Shown here one piece after another: positions 1 to 37,269 of a stretch of 37,975 bases of DNA. The notes beneath the pieces were generated by a model. It was not told the origin of the DNA, did not search any database, and saw only the letters and a list, made by a program, of their open reading frames with translations. Position 1 is the first letter of the stretch. Every line of letters starts with the position of its first letter. The DNA comes from an uncultured Ignavibacteria bacterium (GTDB taxonomy: Bacteria > Bacteroidota > Ignavibacteria > Tepidaquicellales > OLB5), in the NCBI GenBank assembly GCA_937873695.1, contig CALMYL010000001.1, forward strand, positions 1-37,975, read 5' to 3'. A program made the translations under genes and the position numbers.

Positions 1-55
<55 letters not shown>

Positions 56-117
56 AGTGAAAATTGTTTTGTGTATCTGAAAAAGTATTATTTATATTTT
101 TATAAATAAAAATTCCG

Positions 118-200
118 TGGGTAGAGAAGGATTCGAACCTCCGAAGGCATAAGCCGACAGATTTACAGTCTGTTGCGTTTAACCACTTCGCTATCTACCC
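118..200 (-). tRNA. tRNA-Tyr (GTA)
   Basis: On the minus strand the acceptor arms GGGTAGA and TCTACCC pair. The anticodon stem ACAGA/TCTGT encloses loop CTGTAAA with anticodon GTA (tyrosine). A long variable arm (class II tRNA) is present, followed by the GGTTCGAATCC T arm. Length is 83 with the discriminator A. The following bases are CGG, so CCA is not encoded. A TTG-N20-TATTTTTG promoter lies just upstream at 216-246. Confidence 0.95.
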
Positions 201-13867: not shown

Positions 13868-14357
13868 GAAGCTTTTCATCCCCCCTTCATTTTGAAGGGG
13901 GGGGCAGATTTTGAGGCTTTAAGCTCTTGCCAATCGCGAGATTAACTCCAGGACTGGAATGATCTCAGATGGGGGTTTATTTTTGTGTCTTTCAAAGCCT
14001 TTCAAAGCAACCCCCATTTTTAATCCACGAGGGAATCAGATTCGGTTCAATTGTGGATTAATGAAAATTCAGACTGATCTTCCCCCCTTTAAAAACAAGG
14101 GGGGACTGTTTTAGAAGCTTTTCATCCCCCCTTCATTTTGAAGGGGGGAGCAGATCTTGAGGCTTAAAGCTCTTGCCAATCGCGAGATTAACTCCAGGGC
14201 TGGAAGGATCTCAGATGGGGGTTTATTTTTGTGTCTTTCAAAGCCTTTCAAAGCAACCCCCATTTTTAATCCACGAGGGAATCAGATTCGGTTCAATTGT
14301 GGATTAATGAAAATTCAGACTGATCTTCCCCCCTTTAAAAACAAGGGGGGACTGTTA
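13868..14357. repeat. 246-bp tandem duplication in a non-coding stretch
   Basis: Two nearly identical copies lie head to tail, the first from 13868 and the second from 14114. Each begins GAAGCTTTTCATCCCCCCTT, contains AATCGCGAGATTAACTCCAG and ATCCACGAGGGAATCAGATT, and ends near CAAGGGGGGACTGTT. Only a few differences are seen. The ends of each unit carry opposed CCCCCC/GGGGGG runs that could pair. The whole stretch 13671-14561 holds no convincing gene apart from this repeat and the ffh promoter. Confidence 0.85.
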
Positions 14358-14525
14358 TCTAAAAGCGTTTTCATCACCCCTCCAAATTCTCATTATCATT
14401 CTCACGATGAATCCGATTTTTTTTTATTGCCCGTCAGGGCGTGGAATCTGCGAAAACAGCCCATAATTGCAGGAAAGATTTTCTCATTATGAATATATTC
14501 ATAGTGAGAATGCTTTGCTAAGTGA

Positions 14526-14598
14526 GAATCATGTTGAGAATGTGCCGGTCTTGGAATATTTTTAAGCATTATTTTCACCCGTTTTCTCAACATGATTC
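14526..14598. repeat. 15-bp perfect inverted repeat at the 3' end of the 384-aa gene
   Basis: GAATCATGTTGAGAA at 14526-14540 is mirrored by TTCTCAACATGATTC at 14584-14598, with 43 bases between. The right arm lies within the last codons of the HTH gene. Neighbouring TGAGAATG-type words around 14395-14540 are further partial copies. It could terminate transcription or mark an element end; neither is shown. Confidence 0.5.
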
Positions 14599-15716
14599 GC
14601 ACGATGATTATTCATCTTGAGACTCTGATCGCCCTCATTATTATTTTTTATTTCAGTAGAAAATTCATCATCACAATTTATCTCTTCATCCCTGCCGCTA
14701 TCATCTTCGGGAGATGGGGTTGGCGTTGGTGTTGGCTGATATGCTGGCGTGGGCACATAAGATGGAATAGGTTTAGTCCGCGTGCGGTCAAGGAACGGGT
14801 GCGAAGCGATTATTTTGGCGACACTCTCGCGGGTGGCAGTGGGGGAGAATACCCCTACAATATGCATCACCTCATCAAACGAGTAATTACCGCCGGCACT
14901 GTTTAATGTATTGCGTATTTCGGTAAGCTGCTTAGTTGTTGAGGTAAGCTGCCTCAGCTCAAGCGGTGTAATATAGCCGCGCCGCATGGCGCTGTTAAGC
15001 TGATTGCGCAGGAGTACATCAATAGAAAAAGCTACAGCCTCCTCCTTTGACTTTCCCCCCGCCTCTGATGAAGCGGCAATGCCATCAAGGTGACCCTTTA
15101 TGACGGAGTTTTTTACATAATGCACCTCGCCGCCCGGGAAAGTGAGCTTCTGAATGCCATCGGGATCTTTGGTATCGATGCCCGCAACTTTGTAAAAGAA
15201 CTTTGAGGCATTGCCTTCATAGCAGGGCAGGTGAGTATTTTTTGGTGTGGCGCCATCTTTGCCATCAGCCCTTATGTAGGTAACGTTTGATATCTTCATT
15301 CCGTCAACCAGCTTAGGGTCAAATATATGATGTACCACTTTTGGCTTGGGGTTCATTACCAATTGAGCGGCATGGCTTATTTTCTGTTTTACTTTGCCAA
15401 GCCGTACCCGGGAGTAGTCAAACCCTTTTATAATAGACATTTCAATGAGTATCTGCTGATCATTTTTGCGTGCAAGCATCATTTCCGTGACAAGCTCAAG
15501 CTCTAAATTGGTAATTTTCGTCATATACGGCTTATGATTACGCTTGCGGTATGTCCCGGGTTTGGGTTTGCCAAGCTCGCGGTAAATGGTAGCTTTGCTT
15601 AGTTTATACTTATCGCAGATATCATCCAGCAGCTTTTTATGTTCCTGGGGCGATGAATTGCCCAACTGGCGAAGCCTGAGGATATCATTGTGTAGTGAAA
15701 GGTTAAATTGCTTCAT
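14562..15716 (-). CDS. unrecognised 384-aa protein with N-terminal HTH
   Basis: I do not recognise this family. Residues about 20-48 (LLDDICDKYKLSKATIYREL) look like a helix-turn-helix of the kind found in transposases and resolvases. A second helical segment (about 68-105) follows. The middle (about 120-320) has no motif I know. A Pro/Thr-rich linker (SYVPTPAYQPTPTPTPSPED) leads to an acidic, Asn-rich tail. No DDE, serine- or tyrosine-recombinase catalytic set is evident. It lies on the opposite strand from, and next to, the Argonaute operon, with a promoter and overlapping palindrome of its own at 15915-15968. It could be a DNA-binding regulator or part of a mobile element. Confidence 0.7.
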   Translation of the reverse strand: MKQFNLSLHNDILRLRQLGNSSPQEHKKLLDDICDKYKLSKATIYRELGKPKPGTYRKRNHKPYMTKITNLELELVTEMMLARKNDQQILIEMSIIKGFDYSRVRLGKVKQKISHAAQLVMNPKPKVVHHIFDPKLVDGMKISNVTYIRADGKDGATPKNTHLPCYEGNASKFFYKVAGIDTKDPDGIQKLTFPGGEVHYVKNSVIKGHLDGIAASSEAGGKSKEEAVAFSIDVLLRNQLNSAMRRGYITPLELRQLTSTTKQLTEIRNTLNSAGGNYSFDEVMHIVGVFSPTATRESVAKIIASHPFLDRTRTKPIPSYVPTPAYQPTPTPTPSPEDDSGRDEEINCDDEFSTEIKNNNEGDQSLKMNNHRANHVEKTGENNA

Positions 15717-15914
15717 AGTGGTTTAATTTTAGGTTGGGTCCCGCTAAAAGCGGGACGAAAACTTACTCCGAAGGAGGAAGTTAGAAATTACAAGTTAAAG
15801 GTTGAGTCTGGTACTACGTTTACCCCTTTGGGGTCTTAATCTTCATTAGCGGAGGAAGAAAGCCGGGGAAAAAGGTTTCCAATTGCTAATTGTTCATTAC
15901 TAATTGCTCATTGT

Positions 15915-15933
15915 AATATGCTGATAGCATATT
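15915..15933. promoter_or_regulatory. operator-like palindrome over the HTH gene start site
   Basis: AATATGCT-GAT-AGCATATT is a perfect palindrome with 8-bp arms. It begins 4 bases downstream of the -7 box at 15938-15945, where transcription should start. A related imperfect word, ATATGCTAAGTGCATT, lies at 15948-15963 between the two promoter boxes. A repressor bound here would block the promoter; autoregulation by the HTH protein is inference. Confidence 0.45.
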
Positions 15934-15937
15934 AAAT

Positions 15938-15968
15938 CAAATATAATATATGCTAAGTGCATTGTCAA
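15938..15968 (-). promoter_or_regulatory. Bacteroidota-type promoter for the 384-aa HTH gene
   Basis: The minus strand has TTG (15968-15966), 20 bases, then TATATTTG (15945-15938). The leader to the ATG at 15716 would be about 215 bases and includes a GCGGGAC hairpin. Confidence 0.6.
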
Positions 15969-16244
15969 GTCAATCTATAAGTCAAATACTGCGAAGCAGT
16001 GCTTGCAAGCCAAAGACCTGCTTAAAGCAGGAGGAAAAATTGAGAAATTGTTGGAGTTTGTGGAAAAAGGGGAAAACTTGGCGAAAATATTATTTAAGGC
16101 TGAACGGTGAAAGGTGATTGTGAGGGGTGAATCCCTAAATATTCTGTTTATCCGTTTATCCAGACAAAACCGAAAGTGTATTGATGTATTTTAATTGAAA
16201 ATTGTGGGAAAACATTATCTATTAAGAAAACAATAGAATATGTT

Positions 16245-16334: not shown

Positions 16335-18875
16335 ATGAATATAGGCAGTATTGAAGAAATTATTTCATTGTTTAGAAAAGAACATGTTTCTAGACCGATA
16401 CTATTGCTCGGTGCTGGAGCATCTTTTAAATCAGGAGTTCCATTAGCAAATGATTCTGTTAAAAGAATTGCAAAAGCTAGTTACACAACAAATAAAGGAC
16501 AACACTGGAAAAATTATGATCGTGTAAACACTAGCGAATGGGAACCTTATTTAAAAAGTAAGCCCTGGTACAAAGAGTTTCAAAAAAACTTAGCTGAAGC
16601 ATTTCCTACAGCTGTTGAAAAATTACTGCAACCTAAAGAATTTAGAAAAGAATTTCTATTAGATATTCTTGAACCAAAAATACCCATTAGTAATGGTTAT
16701 TATGCATTAGCAAGTATTATTGAGAAAAATTTATGTTGGACAATACTTACAACAAATTTCGATACGCTTATCTATGATTCTTTTAAATCAAAAGTTCCAA
16801 CAAAAAAAATATTTGAAATTAATAAAACTAGTGAAGGACTAAATGCCTTTAAAATTTACGGACAAAGGCAAATAGTATACTTACATGGTGCATTGGAGTA
16901 TTATACCGATAAAGTTGAACGAGGAGAAACTAAAAAATTAAATGAAAATCTAATAACAAAACTCAGACCTTGTTTAGACAATGGACCTTTAATAGTAGTT
17001 GGGTATCGAGGTGCAGAAGAGTCAATAATGAAACACTTATTGACGGAAGGTATTGAACATTGTAATAACTATTCAAATGGAATATTTTGGTGTATACTTA
17101 ATGATGAAGAACCGCATAGTTATGTAACTGATCTTGCGTCATCTATAGGGGGTAATTTTAAGCTGATCCGAATAGAAGGATTTGATGAATTAATGGAAAG
17201 GTTAGCGAGTGAATTAGAAAATGAGTATTTCATGAATACAGAGACTCAGCTAAATTTAGATAGTGCCCTGCTATTTGATGAGAAAATTTTAGAAGATAAG
17301 ACATTCGAAGATTTAGATGAAAACTTAATCAAAGTGACATTATCAAAATATTTTGAACGTTTATTAGTTTCTTCTGTCAAATCTGAAAATTATATTGATT
17401 TTCTTATAGCTGAACATTTTCTGGTTAAGAGAAATGGAAAGATTCATCCCACAAATGCATGTTATTTATTATTTGGAAAAAATATTAGTGATAAGTTTCC
17501 TTATGCAGTAATTAAGTTTGAAATAAACGGCAAATCAAGAACAATGTTTGATGGAAATCTCTTGGAACAATATAGTAAACTTCAAGATTATTTCGACAAT
17601 GAAAACATAAACCCTATTATACGCATAAAAATTGGAAAAGAATCTTTTGATCAAGAAGCATATCAACCTTCAGCAATAAGAGAACTTTTAGTCAATATGA
17701 TAGTGCATAGAGATTATGAAATAGAAGAATTTAATAAGATTGAATACAAAACAGGTGAAGGAATAAATTTTGTTTCATCAGGGGGTTTACCACAAGAAGT
17801 TCTACAAAAGGTTAAAGTGGATCCAAATGGTTTGTTTGAGCCAATTAGAGGGCTTTCTTATATAAGGAATAGGCTTATAGCTGATATTTTTTATGGAATT
17901 GGTTCAATGGATAAGGTGGGTTCTGGAATGCCAGATGTAAAAGAATATATGAGAGAAAATGGTGGAGAGGCACAATTCAAAATCAGTGAAAACAATAAAA
18001 CATTATGCTCTACTTTGCTTCAAGCAATTCAAACAAATCCTAATTATGATAACATAGCAAAACCTATAACAAAAACTGAGTTATTTATAACAAATTTACT
18101 TCCTTTCAGAGTATTGCCAAAGACAATTTACCTTTTCCCAACTTTTAATTATTTGTCTTTTATCCAGATTGTTAAAAAGTTGCCTAAGGGTGATACTTTA
18201 CCACTTTTTATAACGGATATCCATAATAATGTTTTAAATAAGAAAATAATTAGTTTTGCACATTTAGAGTTTTATAAAGAATATTTTGAAGATGTGATAG
18301 ACTTTGCAAAAGCTGAGGAAGTAGAAGTTTCTGAGTTTACAAAAGATTTAGATAAAAGGAAGAGACTTTCTTGGTTAATTTTAAAACATTTTGAGTTTTA
18401 TCTAAAAAGTTTTTCTAAATATGGTTTACGAATAGAGTATAAGGATAGAAAAGCATATTTCGAATTAGTTTCTGGAATTGAAAATAAAATAACTTATTTA
18501 TCAAGATTGAATAGAAAAACCACAAGAGCAGTTGTAAAAAGAAGAGAAACTAAAACAAGAGTATATCATGAAAATGAAGGAATTAGTTTTGGACTGGAGT
18601 ATTTAGGCAATCAGTTTTCATTAAGTATAAAGCCTATATATGTATTTACACAACAAGATGGTAAAACACCACTGCAATCCTATTTGCGTTCACGGTTTAC
18701 GACATCAAGAATGAAGTTTGATAGAAACAAGAATGTTGATGATGATTTACATTTTTGGTTAAAATTGATTAGTCAAGGTAGTAGCTCAATAAATATGGGC
18801 GGTTTTGAAGTTGATGATCTAATACTAGACTCTAAGTATATTGAAAACGAAGTAGTGGTTGAAGAGGAAAACTAG
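16335..18875 (+). CDS. SIR2 / RecG-like (HATPase_c_4) / APAZ effector of a short Argonaute system
   Basis: This 846-aa protein has three parts. Residues about 15-295 are a SIR2-like domain: GAGASFKSG (26-34), TTNFDTL with Asn141, YLHG with His184 and VVGYRG (221-226). SIR2 domains of this kind hydrolyse NAD+. Residues about 355-560 match the C-terminal part of AlbA_2/RecG-like proteins: HPTNACYLLFGK (371-382), RELLVNMIVHRDY (449-461), SSGGLP (481-486) and VGSGMPDV (528-535), an HATPase_c_4-like fold. Residues about 570-846 look like an APAZ domain, which docks onto a short Argonaute and replaces its N-PAZ half (family knowledge). The Argonaute gene starts 5 bases after the stop. The expected role is to deplete NAD+ when the guide-loaded partner finds invader nucleic acid; this is inference. 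DNA is visibly AT-richer than the flanks. Confidence 0.82.
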   Translation: MNIGSIEEIISLFRKEHVSRPILLLGAGASFKSGVPLANDSVKRIAKASYTTNKGQHWKNYDRVNTSEWEPYLKSKPWYKEFQKNLAEAFPTAVEKLLQPKEFRKEFLLDILEPKIPISNGYYALASIIEKNLCWTILTTNFDTLIYDSFKSKVPTKKIFEINKTSEGLNAFKIYGQRQIVYLHGALEYYTDKVERGETKKLNENLITKLRPCLDNGPLIVVGYRGAEESIMKHLLTEGIEHCNNYSNGIFWCILNDEEPHSYVTDLASSIGGNFKLIRIEGFDELMERLASELENEYFMNTETQLNLDSALLFDEKILEDKTFEDLDENLIKVTLSKYFERLLVSSVKSENYIDFLIAEHFLVKRNGKIHPTNACYLLFGKNISDKFPYAVIKFEINGKSRTMFDGNLLEQYSKLQDYFDNENINPIIRIKIGKESFDQEAYQPSAIRELLVNMIVHRDYEIEEFNKIEYKTGEGINFVSSGGLPQEVLQKVKVDPNGLFEPIRGLSYIRNRLIADIFYGIGSMDKVGSGMPDVKEYMRENGGEAQFKISENNKTLCSTLLQAIQTNPNYDNIAKPITKTELFITNLLPFRVLPKTIYLFPTFNYLSFIQIVKKLPKGDTLPLFITDIHNNVLNKKIISFAHLEFYKEYFEDVIDFAKAEEVEVSEFTKDLDKRKRLSWLILKHFEFYLKSFSKYGLRIEYKDRKAYFELVSGIENKITYLSRLNRKTTRAVVKRRETKTRVYHENEGISFGLEYLGNQFSLSIKPIYVFTQQDGKTPLQSYLRSRFTTSRMKFDRNKNVDDDLHFWLKLISQGSSSINMGGFEVDDLILDSKYIENEVVVEEEN

Positions 18876-18880
18876 CATAG

Positions 18881-20386
18881 ATGAAAATTGAAATAATAAA
18901 GATTAAAGAACCTAAATTAGAATTTGGAAACAAAGTAACGAGTCCTTTTATTAAAGAAGCCTTGTTGAAAGGTTGTGGTCCTTTTGAATCAAATTTTTAT
19001 GAAAATATTAAAAATATAAACTTAGGGATTGTTACCCTCCCCGATAAATTAGAATCAATTATTCACTGGGTAGAAACTCTAGACACTGCAATTTTAAGTG
19101 ATGAAAAGAACATCCTTAAATACCCTGAATTTTTGGGTACTGGAAAAATGTTGAAATGTAAATTTGTAATAAACCAAAAGCATATTAAAATCCTTAATCC
19201 TAAAAAATACGAACAATTACTTTTGATTTCGCAGCGTCATAAATTTACAGCACTATTAGAATTATATACAGAACAAATAGAATCATTATATGGTGATAAT
19301 AAGCCAGATTGCATTTTGGTATACTTTCCAGAGGAAATTGCTTCATTACGTGTAGCTAATTCAAAATTGAGTATTGCAGAAAGAACTTATCTTGAGAGAG
19401 TTTCTCAAGAAGATGATCAGGAGCAATTACAGTTATTTGAGCTTTCACCGGAAGAAAAGAAATTAGCTGAAGAATTGTTACCTCAAGCTGATGAGCTTTT
19501 ATTTAGAAGTTTCCATAGAGCACTAAAAGCGAAGTCAATGAGTATGCCCAATTGTGTTCCTTTACAGATAATTCGGGAACGTACATTCGAACCAGATTCA
19601 ACAGTTCAATCGTTATCCACGATTGCGTGGAATATAAGTCTTGGGTTGTATTACAAATCAGGTAATATACCATGGCGATTAAATGATATATCGGCAGATA
19701 CATGTTTTGTAGGTATTAGTTTTCATCATCTGAAAAAAAGAGGAGGTGATATTGTGTATGCGAGTGTCGCTCAAGCCTTTTCTTCAACTGGTGAGGGATT
19801 TGCTCTTAAAGGTGCAAATATACCCAAAGATCAAAGACGACATAAACGACCATATTTGTTAGAAGAGCAAGCTAAGGATTTGATAGAAAAAGTTGTAAAC
19901 GATTATAAAATGAGAAATGGAAATCTGCCTACTAGAATAGTTGTTCATAAAACATCAAAATATGAAATCGAGGAAGAACGTGGTATACTATCGGCACTTG
20001 AAAAAATTGTTCCAAGATGTGAACTAGTTTGGTTTTCACCATCTCCATTTCGATTATTAAAAAGGGGACAGCAACCTCCAGAACGAGGAACATTGTGCAT
20101 TTTAGAGGATCAAGAGCATTTCTTATTTACTACTGGATATATCCCACAATGGAGGGAGTATCCAGGTCCACATATTCCTTCACCTATTCAAATTGGAGCA
20201 AATGAAGATGTGGATATCGTTCAAGCTGCTAAGGAGATTTTAGCTTTAACGAAAATGAATTGGAATTCTTCTGATGGAATTGGAAGATTCCCTATCACAT
20301 TATCATTCGCTCGAAGAGTTGGAATGATAATGACGGAATTAGAGGAAGAGCAAATCCCTAATCCATCGTATAGATTCTATATGTAA
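18881..20386 (+). CDS. short prokaryotic Argonaute (MID-PIWI), catalytically inactive
   Basis: This 501-aa protein has only MID and PIWI halves, as in short pAgos. The MID part includes FHRALKAKSMSMPNCVPLQI (211-230), the likely guide 5'-end pocket. The PIWI part runs from PWRLND (264-269) through FVGISF (276-281), RIVVHKTSKY (352-361), LVWFSPSPFRLLKRGQQPP (382-400), LFTTGY and EYPGPHIPSPIQIG to the family's typical end KMNWNSSDGIGRFPITLSFA...PNPSYRFYM. The catalytic aspartates are missing: Ser280 where active proteins have GID, and Thr358 where they have an HRD-type Asp. It should bind guide and target without cutting, and switch on the SIR2-APAZ partner. A GAGGAA sequence at the end of the preceding gene may serve as ribosome binding site. 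N-terminal residues 1-130 are less conserved in my reading. Confidence 0.88.
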   Translation: MKIEIIKIKEPKLEFGNKVTSPFIKEALLKGCGPFESNFYENIKNINLGIVTLPDKLESIIHWVETLDTAILSDEKNILKYPEFLGTGKMLKCKFVINQKHIKILNPKKYEQLLLISQRHKFTALLELYTEQIESLYGDNKPDCILVYFPEEIASLRVANSKLSIAERTYLERVSQEDDQEQLQLFELSPEEKKLAEELLPQADELLFRSFHRALKAKSMSMPNCVPLQIIRERTFEPDSTVQSLSTIAWNISLGLYYKSGNIPWRLNDISADTCFVGISFHHLKKRGGDIVYASVAQAFSSTGEGFALKGANIPKDQRRHKRPYLLEEQAKDLIEKVVNDYKMRNGNLPTRIVVHKTSKYEIEEERGILSALEKIVPRCELVWFSPSPFRLLKRGQQPPERGTLCILEDQEHFLFTTGYIPQWREYPGPHIPSPIQIGANEDVDIVQAAKEILALTKMNWNSSDGIGRFPITLSFARRVGMIMTELEEEQIPNPSYRFYM

Positions 20387-20402
20387 GTTATAAAATTACT
20401 TT

Positions 20403-21245
20403 ATGCAATTTACTGTTTCACTAAATAGTCACGAAAATGATGCTTATAATTTAGGCTATCTAAATAGTTATTTAGACAATTATCTATTGCTGAAATACAA
20501 AATTCACGAAAGCAAAAATAATACTAATGATGAAGCCAAAAAAAGATTTTTTAACGCTTTAGGTATTTATAATTATTCATTATTTGAAAATCTCTGGCAT
20601 TGTTATAAAGCGAGTTATTCAGCAAAGCAAGAAACTTCATACATGCTTGGTAATGTGAAATATGTAATTTCAAATCCATTTAAGAGTAATTTGTCTTCAT
20701 TTTCTACAATAATTCTCTTGTTTGGTACTTGTAGAGACATATATTTTGTACTGTTAAAATTAATGGAGTATGAAACTGGGATAATTGATGAAGATATTTT
20801 TTTTGAAATAATTACAAATGATTCAACATTTAAAAATCCTAATCGTTACGACTTTGAAGAAAAATTGAAAAGTTTATCTAATAATGATCAAAGTTTTGTT
20901 GAAGATGGTTTGAAAATATATGACAATAATATTCTTAGGAATATGTTAGCGCATAGTTTTAGACTACCTTGGTGGTCAAATAAAATGTCAGGCTCAAATG
21001 ATTTTTTCATCTTGAGAGAATTTTATGATACATTTGAGAATTTAAAGGAGAGTGAAGCTAATAGACTAATTTTTAAAAAGTCTATATTTAATATTATCGA
21101 TAACATTTCTGATTATGAATCTTCTATCGAAAATTCCAATACTGATAAATTAATCAGTTCGTCGGAAATATTACGTAATATGCATAATCTCTTGTCAAAG
21201 TTTATCAATAACACCTTTGGTTATATCGTTAAAATCTTGAATTAA
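20403..21245 (+). CDS. hypothetical 280-aa protein with HEPN-like RNxxxH motif, third gene of the Argonaute operon
   Basis: The product is not a family I can name. It is largely helical and Asn/Ser/Lys-rich. Residues 179-184 read RNMLAH, which fits the Rx4-6H signature of HEPN ribonucleases and has the Asn commonly next to the Arg. The surrounding helix (GLKIYDNNILRNMLAHSFRL) is what is expected for a HEPN active-site helix. A hydrophobic helix with CRDIYFVLLKLMEYE lies at about 102-124. It begins 16 bases after the Argonaute stop on the same strand with the same AT-rich composition, so it is probably co-transcribed. A role as an additional RNase effector or toxin is inference. A plain structural or immunity protein remains possible. 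Confidence 0.7.
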   Translation: MQFTVSLNSHENDAYNLGYLNSYLDNYLLLKYKIHESKNNTNDEAKKRFFNALGIYNYSLFENLWHCYKASYSAKQETSYMLGNVKYVISNPFKSNLSSFSTIILLFGTCRDIYFVLLKLMEYETGIIDEDIFFEIITNDSTFKNPNRYDFEEKLKSLSNNDQSFVEDGLKIYDNNILRNMLAHSFRLPWWSNKMSGSNDFFILREFYDTFENLKESEANRLIFKKSIFNIIDNISDYESSIENSNTDKLISSSEILRNMHNLLSKFINNTFGYIVKILN

Positions 21246-36270: not shown

Positions 36271-37269
36271 ATGAAAACAATACTGCTGTTATTTTTAGTT
36301 ATAGCTGTCAATTTGCATGGGCAGTCAGTCTTTAAACAAAGTGAGCAGCTGGTTTCTACATACTCAATTGTTGCCCGTGACAGCGTTACGGGCGAAATTG
36401 GTGTGGCGGTTCAGTCGCACTGGTTCAATGTAGGCGCAATTGTCAGCTGGGGCGAAGCCGGGGTTGGAGTGGTTGCTACGCAGTCGTTTGTTAATCCTGC
36501 TTTTGGTATTAAAGGACTTGACCTGCTTAAACAGGGTAAGACTCCACAGCAGGTAGTTGATGAGCTTATTGCCGGTGATGAAGGCAGAGATTTCCGCCAG
36601 CTTGCTGTGCTTGATAAAGACGGCAATACCGCGTCATACACGGGCAGTAAATGCGTTGATGCTGCGGGTAATATCGCAGGTAAGAATTATTCCGTGCAGG
36701 CGAACCTGATGCTGAGCGAAAAAGTATGGCCCGCCATGGAAATAGCTTTTACTCAGACTACGGGTCCATTGGCTGAACGTATGCTTGCAGCACTTGAAGC
36801 AGCTCAGCAAATGGGCGGCGATATCAGGGGAATGCAAAGCGCATCAATAATGGTGTGGAAGGGCAATTCGACAGGAAAACCATGGGAAGATAAGCTGATG
36901 GATCTGAGGGTTGAAGATAATCCCGCCCCGCTTGAAGAATTAAAGAGGCTGCTTACGGTTCACAGAGCGTATGAACACATGAATGCAGGTGATGTTGCAG
37001 TAGAAAAAAATGATATGACCCTTGCAATGAATGAATACAATGCGGCAATGGAGATGTTCCCCGATAACCTTGAGATGAAATTCTGGACTGCTGTTACGCT
37101 TGCAAATAACAACAGACTTGATGAAGCGCTGCCGTTATTTAACATAGTATTTGCAACAGATAAGAATTGGAAGACGCTAGCTCCAAGGTTGCCAAAATCC
37201 GGTTTGCTGAATGTTACCGAGGAAGAAATGAAGAAAATTATGAGTGTTGGTGAAAAAAATGAGCATTAG
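36271..37269 (+). CDS. secreted DUF1028 family protein with C-terminal TPR-like region
   Basis: This 332-aa protein has a signal peptide (MKTILLLFLVIAVNLHGQS) followed by the DUF1028 domain, recognised by STYSIVARDSVTGEIGVAVQ, SHWFNVGAIVSWGEAGVGVV, ATQSFVNPAFGIKGLDLL and then the SVQANLM and AMLAALEAA-type segments. DUF1028 has an Ntn-hydrolase-like fold by family knowledge, so a peptide- or amide-cleaving role is possible; this is inference. A C-terminal part (about 225-325; HRAYEHMNAGDVAVEKNDMT, ALPLFNIVFATDKNWKTLAP) looks like TPR or Sel1-like helices. It is last in a three-gene plus-strand run. Confidence 0.87.
   Translation: MKTILLLFLVIAVNLHGQSVFKQSEQLVSTYSIVARDSVTGEIGVAVQSHWFNVGAIVSWGEAGVGVVATQSFVNPAFGIKGLDLLKQGKTPQQVVDELIAGDEGRDFRQLAVLDKDGNTASYTGSKCVDAAGNIAGKNYSVQANLMLSEKVWPAMEIAFTQTTGPLAERMLAALEAAQQMGGDIRGMQSASIMVWKGNSTGKPWEDKLMDLRVEDNPAPLEELKRLLTVHRAYEHMNAGDVAVEKNDMTLAMNEYNAAMEMFPDNLEMKFWTAVTLANNNRLDEALPLFNIVFATDKNWKTLAPRLPKSGLLNVTEEEMKKIMSVGEKNEH

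Follow-up and report, generated by a model that had tools for sequence, protein, structure and literature searches.

Paired palindromes in a dispersed promoter block may mark an autoregulated, largely noncoding regulon in one genus of uncultured Ignavibacteria

What does a palindrome at the start of a single promoter control? The stretch of DNA that we analysed, 37,975 nucleotides from an uncultured Ignavibacteria bacterium (the window), contains a gene for a 384-aa protein with a predicted helix-turn-helix (HTH) domain. The original prediction placed a palindrome over the start site of this gene's promoter and a degenerate copy of it between the promoter boxes. Both elements are present, and with the promoter they form a block that recurs throughout the genus. 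The features concerned are:

15914 to 15934, unstranded: O2, a perfect 9-3-9 palindrome across the expected transcription start
15950 to 15962, unstranded: O1, a second ATGC-N5-GCAT, inside the -35/-10 spacer, 32 bp from O2
15940 to 15968, minus strand: sigma70-type promoter, TTGACA-17-TATATT; TTG and TATATT do not vary across the 38 aligned modules
15915 to 15969, minus strand: the dispersed promoter/operator module, a match to the R1 model (E = 1.5e-15)
15970 to 16035 (ends approximate), minus strand: hairpin-bearing segment immediately 5' of the module, common to six other modules
15717 to 15933, minus strand: untranslated 5' region containing degenerate AATTAGCAATTG-type repeats
14562 to 15716, minus strand: gene for the 384-aa orphan protein, with an N-terminal tandem HTH (residues ~6-121); a likely regulator
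14386 to 14611 (left end approximate), minus strand: type-A array of inverted repeats that follows the HTH gene and overlaps its 3' end

The palindrome, TAATATGCT-GAT-AGCATATTA, has arms of 9+3+9 when its outermost T/A pair is included (15914-15934) and a 19-bp core, AATATGCT-GAT-AGCATATT, at 15915-15933. It does lie at the start of the HTH gene's promoter, because the expected +1, at about 15933, falls at its edge. Within the window it is unique at up to three mismatches, both listed matches being its two strands, and dinucleotide shuffles contained it 0.03 times on average. The degenerate copy between the boxes is equally real, and is ATGCTAAGTGCAT at 15950-15962, 32 bp from the palindrome. 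Both sites have the form ATGC-N5-GCAT, of which the window has one further example, at 36832. The minus-strand promoter consists of TTGACA (15968-15963), a 17-nt spacer and TATATT (15945-15940), agreeing with the sigma70 consensus at 11 of 12 positions, and it also fits TTG...TAnnTTTG, which we take to be the Bacteroidetes-type promoter (TATATTTG, 15945-15938). In the scan of this 701-bp stretch there were 5 promoter-like sites, compared to 2.9 in shuffles, and the promoter match alone is therefore little proof.

Several repeats surround the block. Seven copies of the module, including that of the window (15970-16035), have directly on their 5' side a segment of about 62 bp with two short hairpins (CCTGCTTTAAGCAGG and ACTGCTTCGCAGT); the other six are L090, L091, L092, L094, L095 and L102. 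In the promoter/terminator scan the two stem-loops of the window's segment appear terminator-like. A related copy on the side of an mscL-like gene, L097, has a similar flank without the segment, by eye as if the segment had been inserted at the module edge. Degenerate AATGAGCAATTAGTAATTAGC-type repeats, with many occurrences across the genus, occupy 15855-15913. Between the array behind the HTH gene and ffh are two head-to-tail 243-bp repeats (13868-14110 and 14114-14356) that are 98% alike, and two tRNA genes lie at the edge of the window (1-200), one of them cut by its end.

A pattern search for the palindrome elsewhere in its own genome, the check that had been proposed for it, gave near-identical sites whose flanks matched too, and DNA searches found the block repeatedly within the genus. 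The local operator reading of the original prediction thus survives in part: the palindrome is real, but the block is dispersed, so it is not the operator of one gene. We made a sequence-only model of the block (R1) from 38 aligned copies (alignment A2). This 57-bp model matches 13 of 13 genomes of the genus, with 1-18 matches per genome and 116 overall at E ≤ 0.01, including a few marginal ones. In 46 other genomes it gave 10 marginal matches in nine genomes (the best with E = 3.7e-4, the rest about 0.005 or worse), in a search of 59 genomes that used stricter filters, which lose weak matches. Across the 38 copies TTG, CATATA and TATATT are invariant, the O2 half-sites and the left half of O1 are invariant or nearly so, and the N5 spacers and the gap between the -10 box and O2 are variable; the right half of O1 takes its CAT from CATATA and has no fixed G. 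The O2 motif is exact in 94 of 107 modules, and O1, which is much less exact, in 31 (with at most one mismatch of 8 in 71, and three or four in 15), while a control stretch gave 0 of 107 better than two mismatches; because R1 includes the sites, these counts are partly circular, and they are a sign of consistency and not a discovery. All 88 modules in which the offset between O1 and O2 was scored have it at 30-32 bp. Fourteen of the 107 modules lead into a gene of the HTH family within 1.5 kb and 93 do not, an arrangement, expected of a small-RNA regulon, in which several loci without a protein gene have one putative regulatory palindrome in common. As a separate observation, locus L133 has GTTGTTGGTGTTGTCACCAACAAC palindromes at about 1400-2000, in the same stretch as another module, and the sequence there reads like what we presume to be a REP-type Y1 transposase.

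At E ≤ 0.01 the 384-aa protein matches neither a Pfam nor a PHROG family, and it has no match above the cut-off in NCBIfam and none in PADLOC. Some of its relatives match HTH_7, above the curated cut-off only in L021. Its N-terminal 123 residues are modelled as two HTH units (mean pLDDT 89, pTM 0.52), and the full-length model has a mean pLDDT of 63 and a pTM of 0.25. There was no structural match at E ≤ 0.001 for the full-length model, nor a Foldseek match at that threshold for the N-domain, whose best Foldseek matches are non-significant (E of 0.15 and above) and are the DNA-binding domains of IstA and TnsB, with MuA lower. The best VIA row for the N-domain is 4xvn (Z 8.7, 54 residues), covering the second HTH only. 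A profile of the HTH domain (A4) matches PDB 2lvs with E = 1.2e-4, a lead only, with aligned profile positions confined to 31-103; this entry has the displayed name 'Putative uncharacterized protein', and we take it to be a Cbp1, an archaeal repeat-binding protein. Among the five 384-type orthologues, pN/pS is 0.24-0.41 across 10 pairs, so the gene is under purifying selection.

The family is nearly confined to the genus. Of 395 genomes sampled across the phylum, two contained its domain, both of this genus, and the nine named relatives of the 384-aa protein are all from Ignavibacteria MAGs. A protein search of 148 nearer relatives gave 26 matches in 13 genomes, those outside the genus being one gene in another genus of the same family and two weak matches at the level of the order. 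Two of these 26 matches are pieces of one gene and those in G027 and G038 lie outside the taxonomic family, which leaves 23 genes. Genomes differ in gene number: the genome of the window (G000) has two, and G009 has six. We rejected a viral origin because neither the 14 candidate stretches from viral contigs nor, at E ≤ 0.01, the phage records contained a relative of the protein. The sole viral contig with the module pattern, L216, has a single match, a short way upstream of an ORF, which we took to be due to chance.

The strongest argument that the family regulates its own genes is the enrichment of the site upstream of them. Of the 23 orphan tandem-HTH genes from the genus and the taxonomic family to which it belongs, 17 have ATGC-N5-GCAT within 400 nt upstream; these 23 genes were found by protein search alone, independently of the site, and are not independent of each other since orthologues were counted separately. 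In 200 dinucleotide shuffles of the same upstream stretches the mean was 0.14 and the maximum 2, and control ORFs at the same loci have the site in 4 of 38 cases. Of the six family genes without a site within 400 nt, one (L117) has a module 511 nt upstream. Among the genes preceded by the sites are some whose products share only about 30% N-domain identity with the 384-aa protein (A4). The proposed operator layout holds up among the orthologues as well, from whose upstream regions the palindrome might have been absent: a module precedes all five 384-type genes (L009, L096, L103, L117 and L119). Operator-like palindromes overlap the promoter of the presumed regulator's own gene, and the regulator has a DNA-binding domain in the predicted tandem HTH model, as expected of an autorepressor. 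These results support autoregulation of the window gene by a family protein, a pairing of protein and site that holds at the level of the family only, because the genomes contain several paralogues.

The Argonaute operon on the other side of the promoter does not appear to take part. It is divergent, with its start codon at 16335, and consists (16335-21245) of a SIR2-domain/short-Argonaute pair (PADLOC class I) and a third ORF of 280 aa with a weak match to a type II restriction-enzyme model (E = 5e-4). A switch shared with this operator had been thought conceivable. We rejected it because short Argonaute was found in 1 of the 13 genomes of the genus (and in 3 of 59 relatives), and because G009 and G011, both without Argonaute, have the same order of module and HTH gene upstream of ffh. 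Among 212 loci the operon had a match only in L009, which is the window itself. On this evidence Argonaute would be a neighbour, not a partner.

What follows the other modules is of a different kind. Behind the non-HTH modules that we viewed there are mostly 150-300 nt of inverted-repeat-rich, apparently noncoding sequence (the payload), belonging to several sequence families, and 1 of the 93 non-HTH modules lies inside an ORF of at least 120 aa. The module copies form clusters of 16, 10, 8, 6, 5 and smaller, plus 34 singletons, some of which, chiefly weaker matches, have no obvious array. The cluster of 16 comprises the type-A copies, whose motif (TTCTCAnnATGA / TCATnnTGAGAA) is clustered in the genome of the window. 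This motif is enriched in G000, G002, G005 and G011 (26-50 sites each, compared to 1-3 in controls) and has at most five sites in each of the other nine genomes of the genus. Among the five genomes that encode a 384-type protein, four show this enrichment; of the eight that do not encode one, none shows it. The type-A array of the window and the copy L092 have in common a 3' end pattern of 36 positions, two of them free. A hand-made core pattern gave matches, not all of them certain, in 36 of 107 modules; in two sets of 93 controls it turned up in 4 upstream stretches and in 6 reversed payloads. We also built a payload-core model (R2) from 26 sequences chosen by pattern and by eye. It has 42 matches in 8 of the 13 genomes, 39 of them on the same strand as a module and no more than 1.1 kb downstream of it; since all 26 training places are among the 42, the count without them is 13 of 16 behind a module, and 37 of the 116 R1 matches (those on the contigs concerned) entered this comparison.

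The sole conserved short ORF that we tested, a 67-aa frame through seven type-A payloads, has pN/pS of 0.94 over 21 pairs, without coding selection, and we therefore rejected a short conserved peptide. The frame is probably not coding, and to the extent tested that type-A payload is noncoding. In three single-sequence folds the stability exceeds that of shuffles (z of -2.8 to -3.2). RNAalifold found no consensus pair in alignment A5, a named GATT/AATC helix had covariation no better than shuffles, and none of the payload helices had covariation across types; in alignment A3 a two-sided change occurs in 4 of 25 predicted pairs, with a covariation term of -0.27. Despite the stable folds, the lack of covariation for a common helix means that the label of structured RNA is not established. 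Rfam gave tRNAs only, and no other known RNA, in the 5 + 16 sources searched, and our literature searches, to which this statement is limited, returned nothing pairing Ignavibacteria with noncoding RNA and nothing on this block.

For 67 of the non-HTH modules both neighbours are in view, and 30 of these lie in divergent gaps and 4 in convergent gaps; in tandem gaps 26 modules point with the genes and 7 against. A same-strand module lies upstream of ffh in 8 of the 10 genomes of the genus where ffh was found (G000, G002, G003, G007, G009, G010, G011 and G012), and the ffh contigs of the other two (G004 and G006) have no module match. What follows this module differs: G000, G009 and G011 have a 384-type gene there, G002 has a type-A array together with what was judged by eye to be a broken remnant, and G003, G007, G010 and G012 have other sequence. 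Because the module is kept before ffh while its contents differ, we conclude that the position of the promoter is old and the payload has changed. A module also precedes a gene that we take to be lpxC-like in six genomes. Duplication to new sites has occurred too, as pairs of copies at unrelated sites have a common block with similar limits, commonly aligning with a start between about -10 and +5 and an end between about +300 and +380 (types pooled).

On balance, we favour the view that the block, with its sites, promoter match, dispersal and association with the gene family, is the two-operator promoter cassette of an autoregulated HTH-family regulon with many noncoding targets. A dimer of a tandem-HTH protein, either the 384-aa protein itself or one of its paralogues, for example that on contig C7, would bind ATGC-N5-GCAT at both O1 and O2. 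With O2 occupied over the +1 and O1 in the -35/-10 spacer, polymerase would be blocked, and the spacing of about three helical turns would favour cooperation between the sites. The promoter would stay shut until a signal relieved the repression. In the window the first product would be the regulator itself, which would close an autoregulatory loop, and the 1-18 cassettes per genome, mostly before noncoding stretches, would drive co-regulated small RNAs or leaders, induced together with the window gene. We infer operator binding, repression rather than activation, and transcription and a role for the payloads; activation instead, or a paralogue as the binder, would be variants of the same model. 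More tentatively, the whole might be a nearly genus-specific, quasi-mobile regulatory system with an orphan tandem-HTH family, paired operators and up to about 18 modules per genome. In such a system hairpin payloads would pass as whole units from one species to another, with promoter and position unchanged, and the C-terminus of the protein and the payload type may co-evolve.

Other explanations fit part of these data. The common limits of copies at unrelated sites, the 16 type-A copies in one cluster and the non-significant matches of the N-domain to IstA, TnsB and then MuA would suit a dispersed MITE- or REP-like element, in which module and inverted-repeat array form a transposable unit of about 300 bp, the HTH-gene copies are autonomous and the palindromes are transposase-like recognition sites. 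We consider this unlikely, because the 384-aa protein has no transposase domain at Pfam sensitivity (no DDE catalytic integrase core at E ≤ 0.01), no MITE-type terminal inverted repeat joins the block ends in the two type-A copies tested, and mobility accounts poorly for the orientation bias in tandem gaps and for the recurrence of the module before ffh and the presumed lpxC-like gene. It is a little less likely still that the operators are real and serve another, unlinked global regulator, with the HTH family merely one of its targets. The sites do precede many loci, and in the window's genome a similar palindrome (TATATGCTTTTAGCATATA in L005, at C29:6899) adjoins an ORF that, by eye, looks like an S24-type phage repressor, as well as a terminase-like ORF; however, enrichment before a whole diverged family is the usual mark of autoregulation, and this family is DNA-binding and, like the module, nearly confined to the genus.

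The modules could also be long regulated leaders of the adjacent protein genes (ffh, the lpxC-like gene and others) and not independent noncoding units. In 69 of 81 cases the module and the first ORF downstream of it point in one direction, a figure helped by the modules in divergent gaps (30 of 67), where either direction counts, and the recurrent positions before ffh and the lpxC-like gene point the same way. This explanation seems improbable to us, since the next ORF begins anywhere from less than 100 to 1,801 nt away, the genes concerned are diverse, and 12 of the 81 modules face an opposing gene, four of these genes being presumably mscL-like. An ordinary operator private to the 384-aa gene, or common only to it and the divergent Argonaute operon, is what the local layout alone would suggest, and we regard it as extremely unlikely: dispersal across the genus and the rarity of Argonaute already contradict an exclusive reading.

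If the two-operator regulon is real, a group of uncultured bacteria would gain a candidate noncoding regulon from sequence alone, with one operator, one orphan regulator family and about 100 modules. Its promoter block stays put, as before ffh, with a protein gene in some copies and one or another repeat array in others behind it, and this exchange at a fixed position would make the evolution of noncoding payloads directly testable.

The proposed system has partial likenesses to several known ones. It may resemble IstA, TnsB and MuA in the bipartite HTH arrangement of the predicted model, where the match is not significant, and differs from them in having no catalytic domain at Pfam sensitivity. 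The archaeal CRISPR-repeat-binding protein Cbp1 has three HTH domains, according to PMC10883916. On that description it would be similar in being a tandem HTH protein acting on repeat arrays, in keeping with the match of the A4 profile to PDB 2lvs, whereas our model has two HTH units, not three, and a C-terminal part in addition. Rsm RNAs have repeated hairpins. In Pseudomonas, rsmX, rsmY and rsmZ share a palindromic upstream sequence that is a potential GacA binding site, as stated in PMC2375449. Both systems have several noncoding loci with one palindromic regulatory sequence and repeated hairpins, but here two sites overlap the core promoter, there are more copies, and the payload families differ between genomes. 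Autorepressors of the phage CI type and the TetR type have operators within their own promoter and immediately beyond it on the downstream side. The likeness to these is in the two palindromes of a single promoter, the first in the spacer and the second over the +1, and in the presence of the site before the regulator family; unlike them, the cassette is repeated before many apparently noncoding loci and the protein is an orphan with a tandem HTH. By analogy, the system would work like a two-operator autorepressor, with a target set that resembles multicopy small-RNA regulons.
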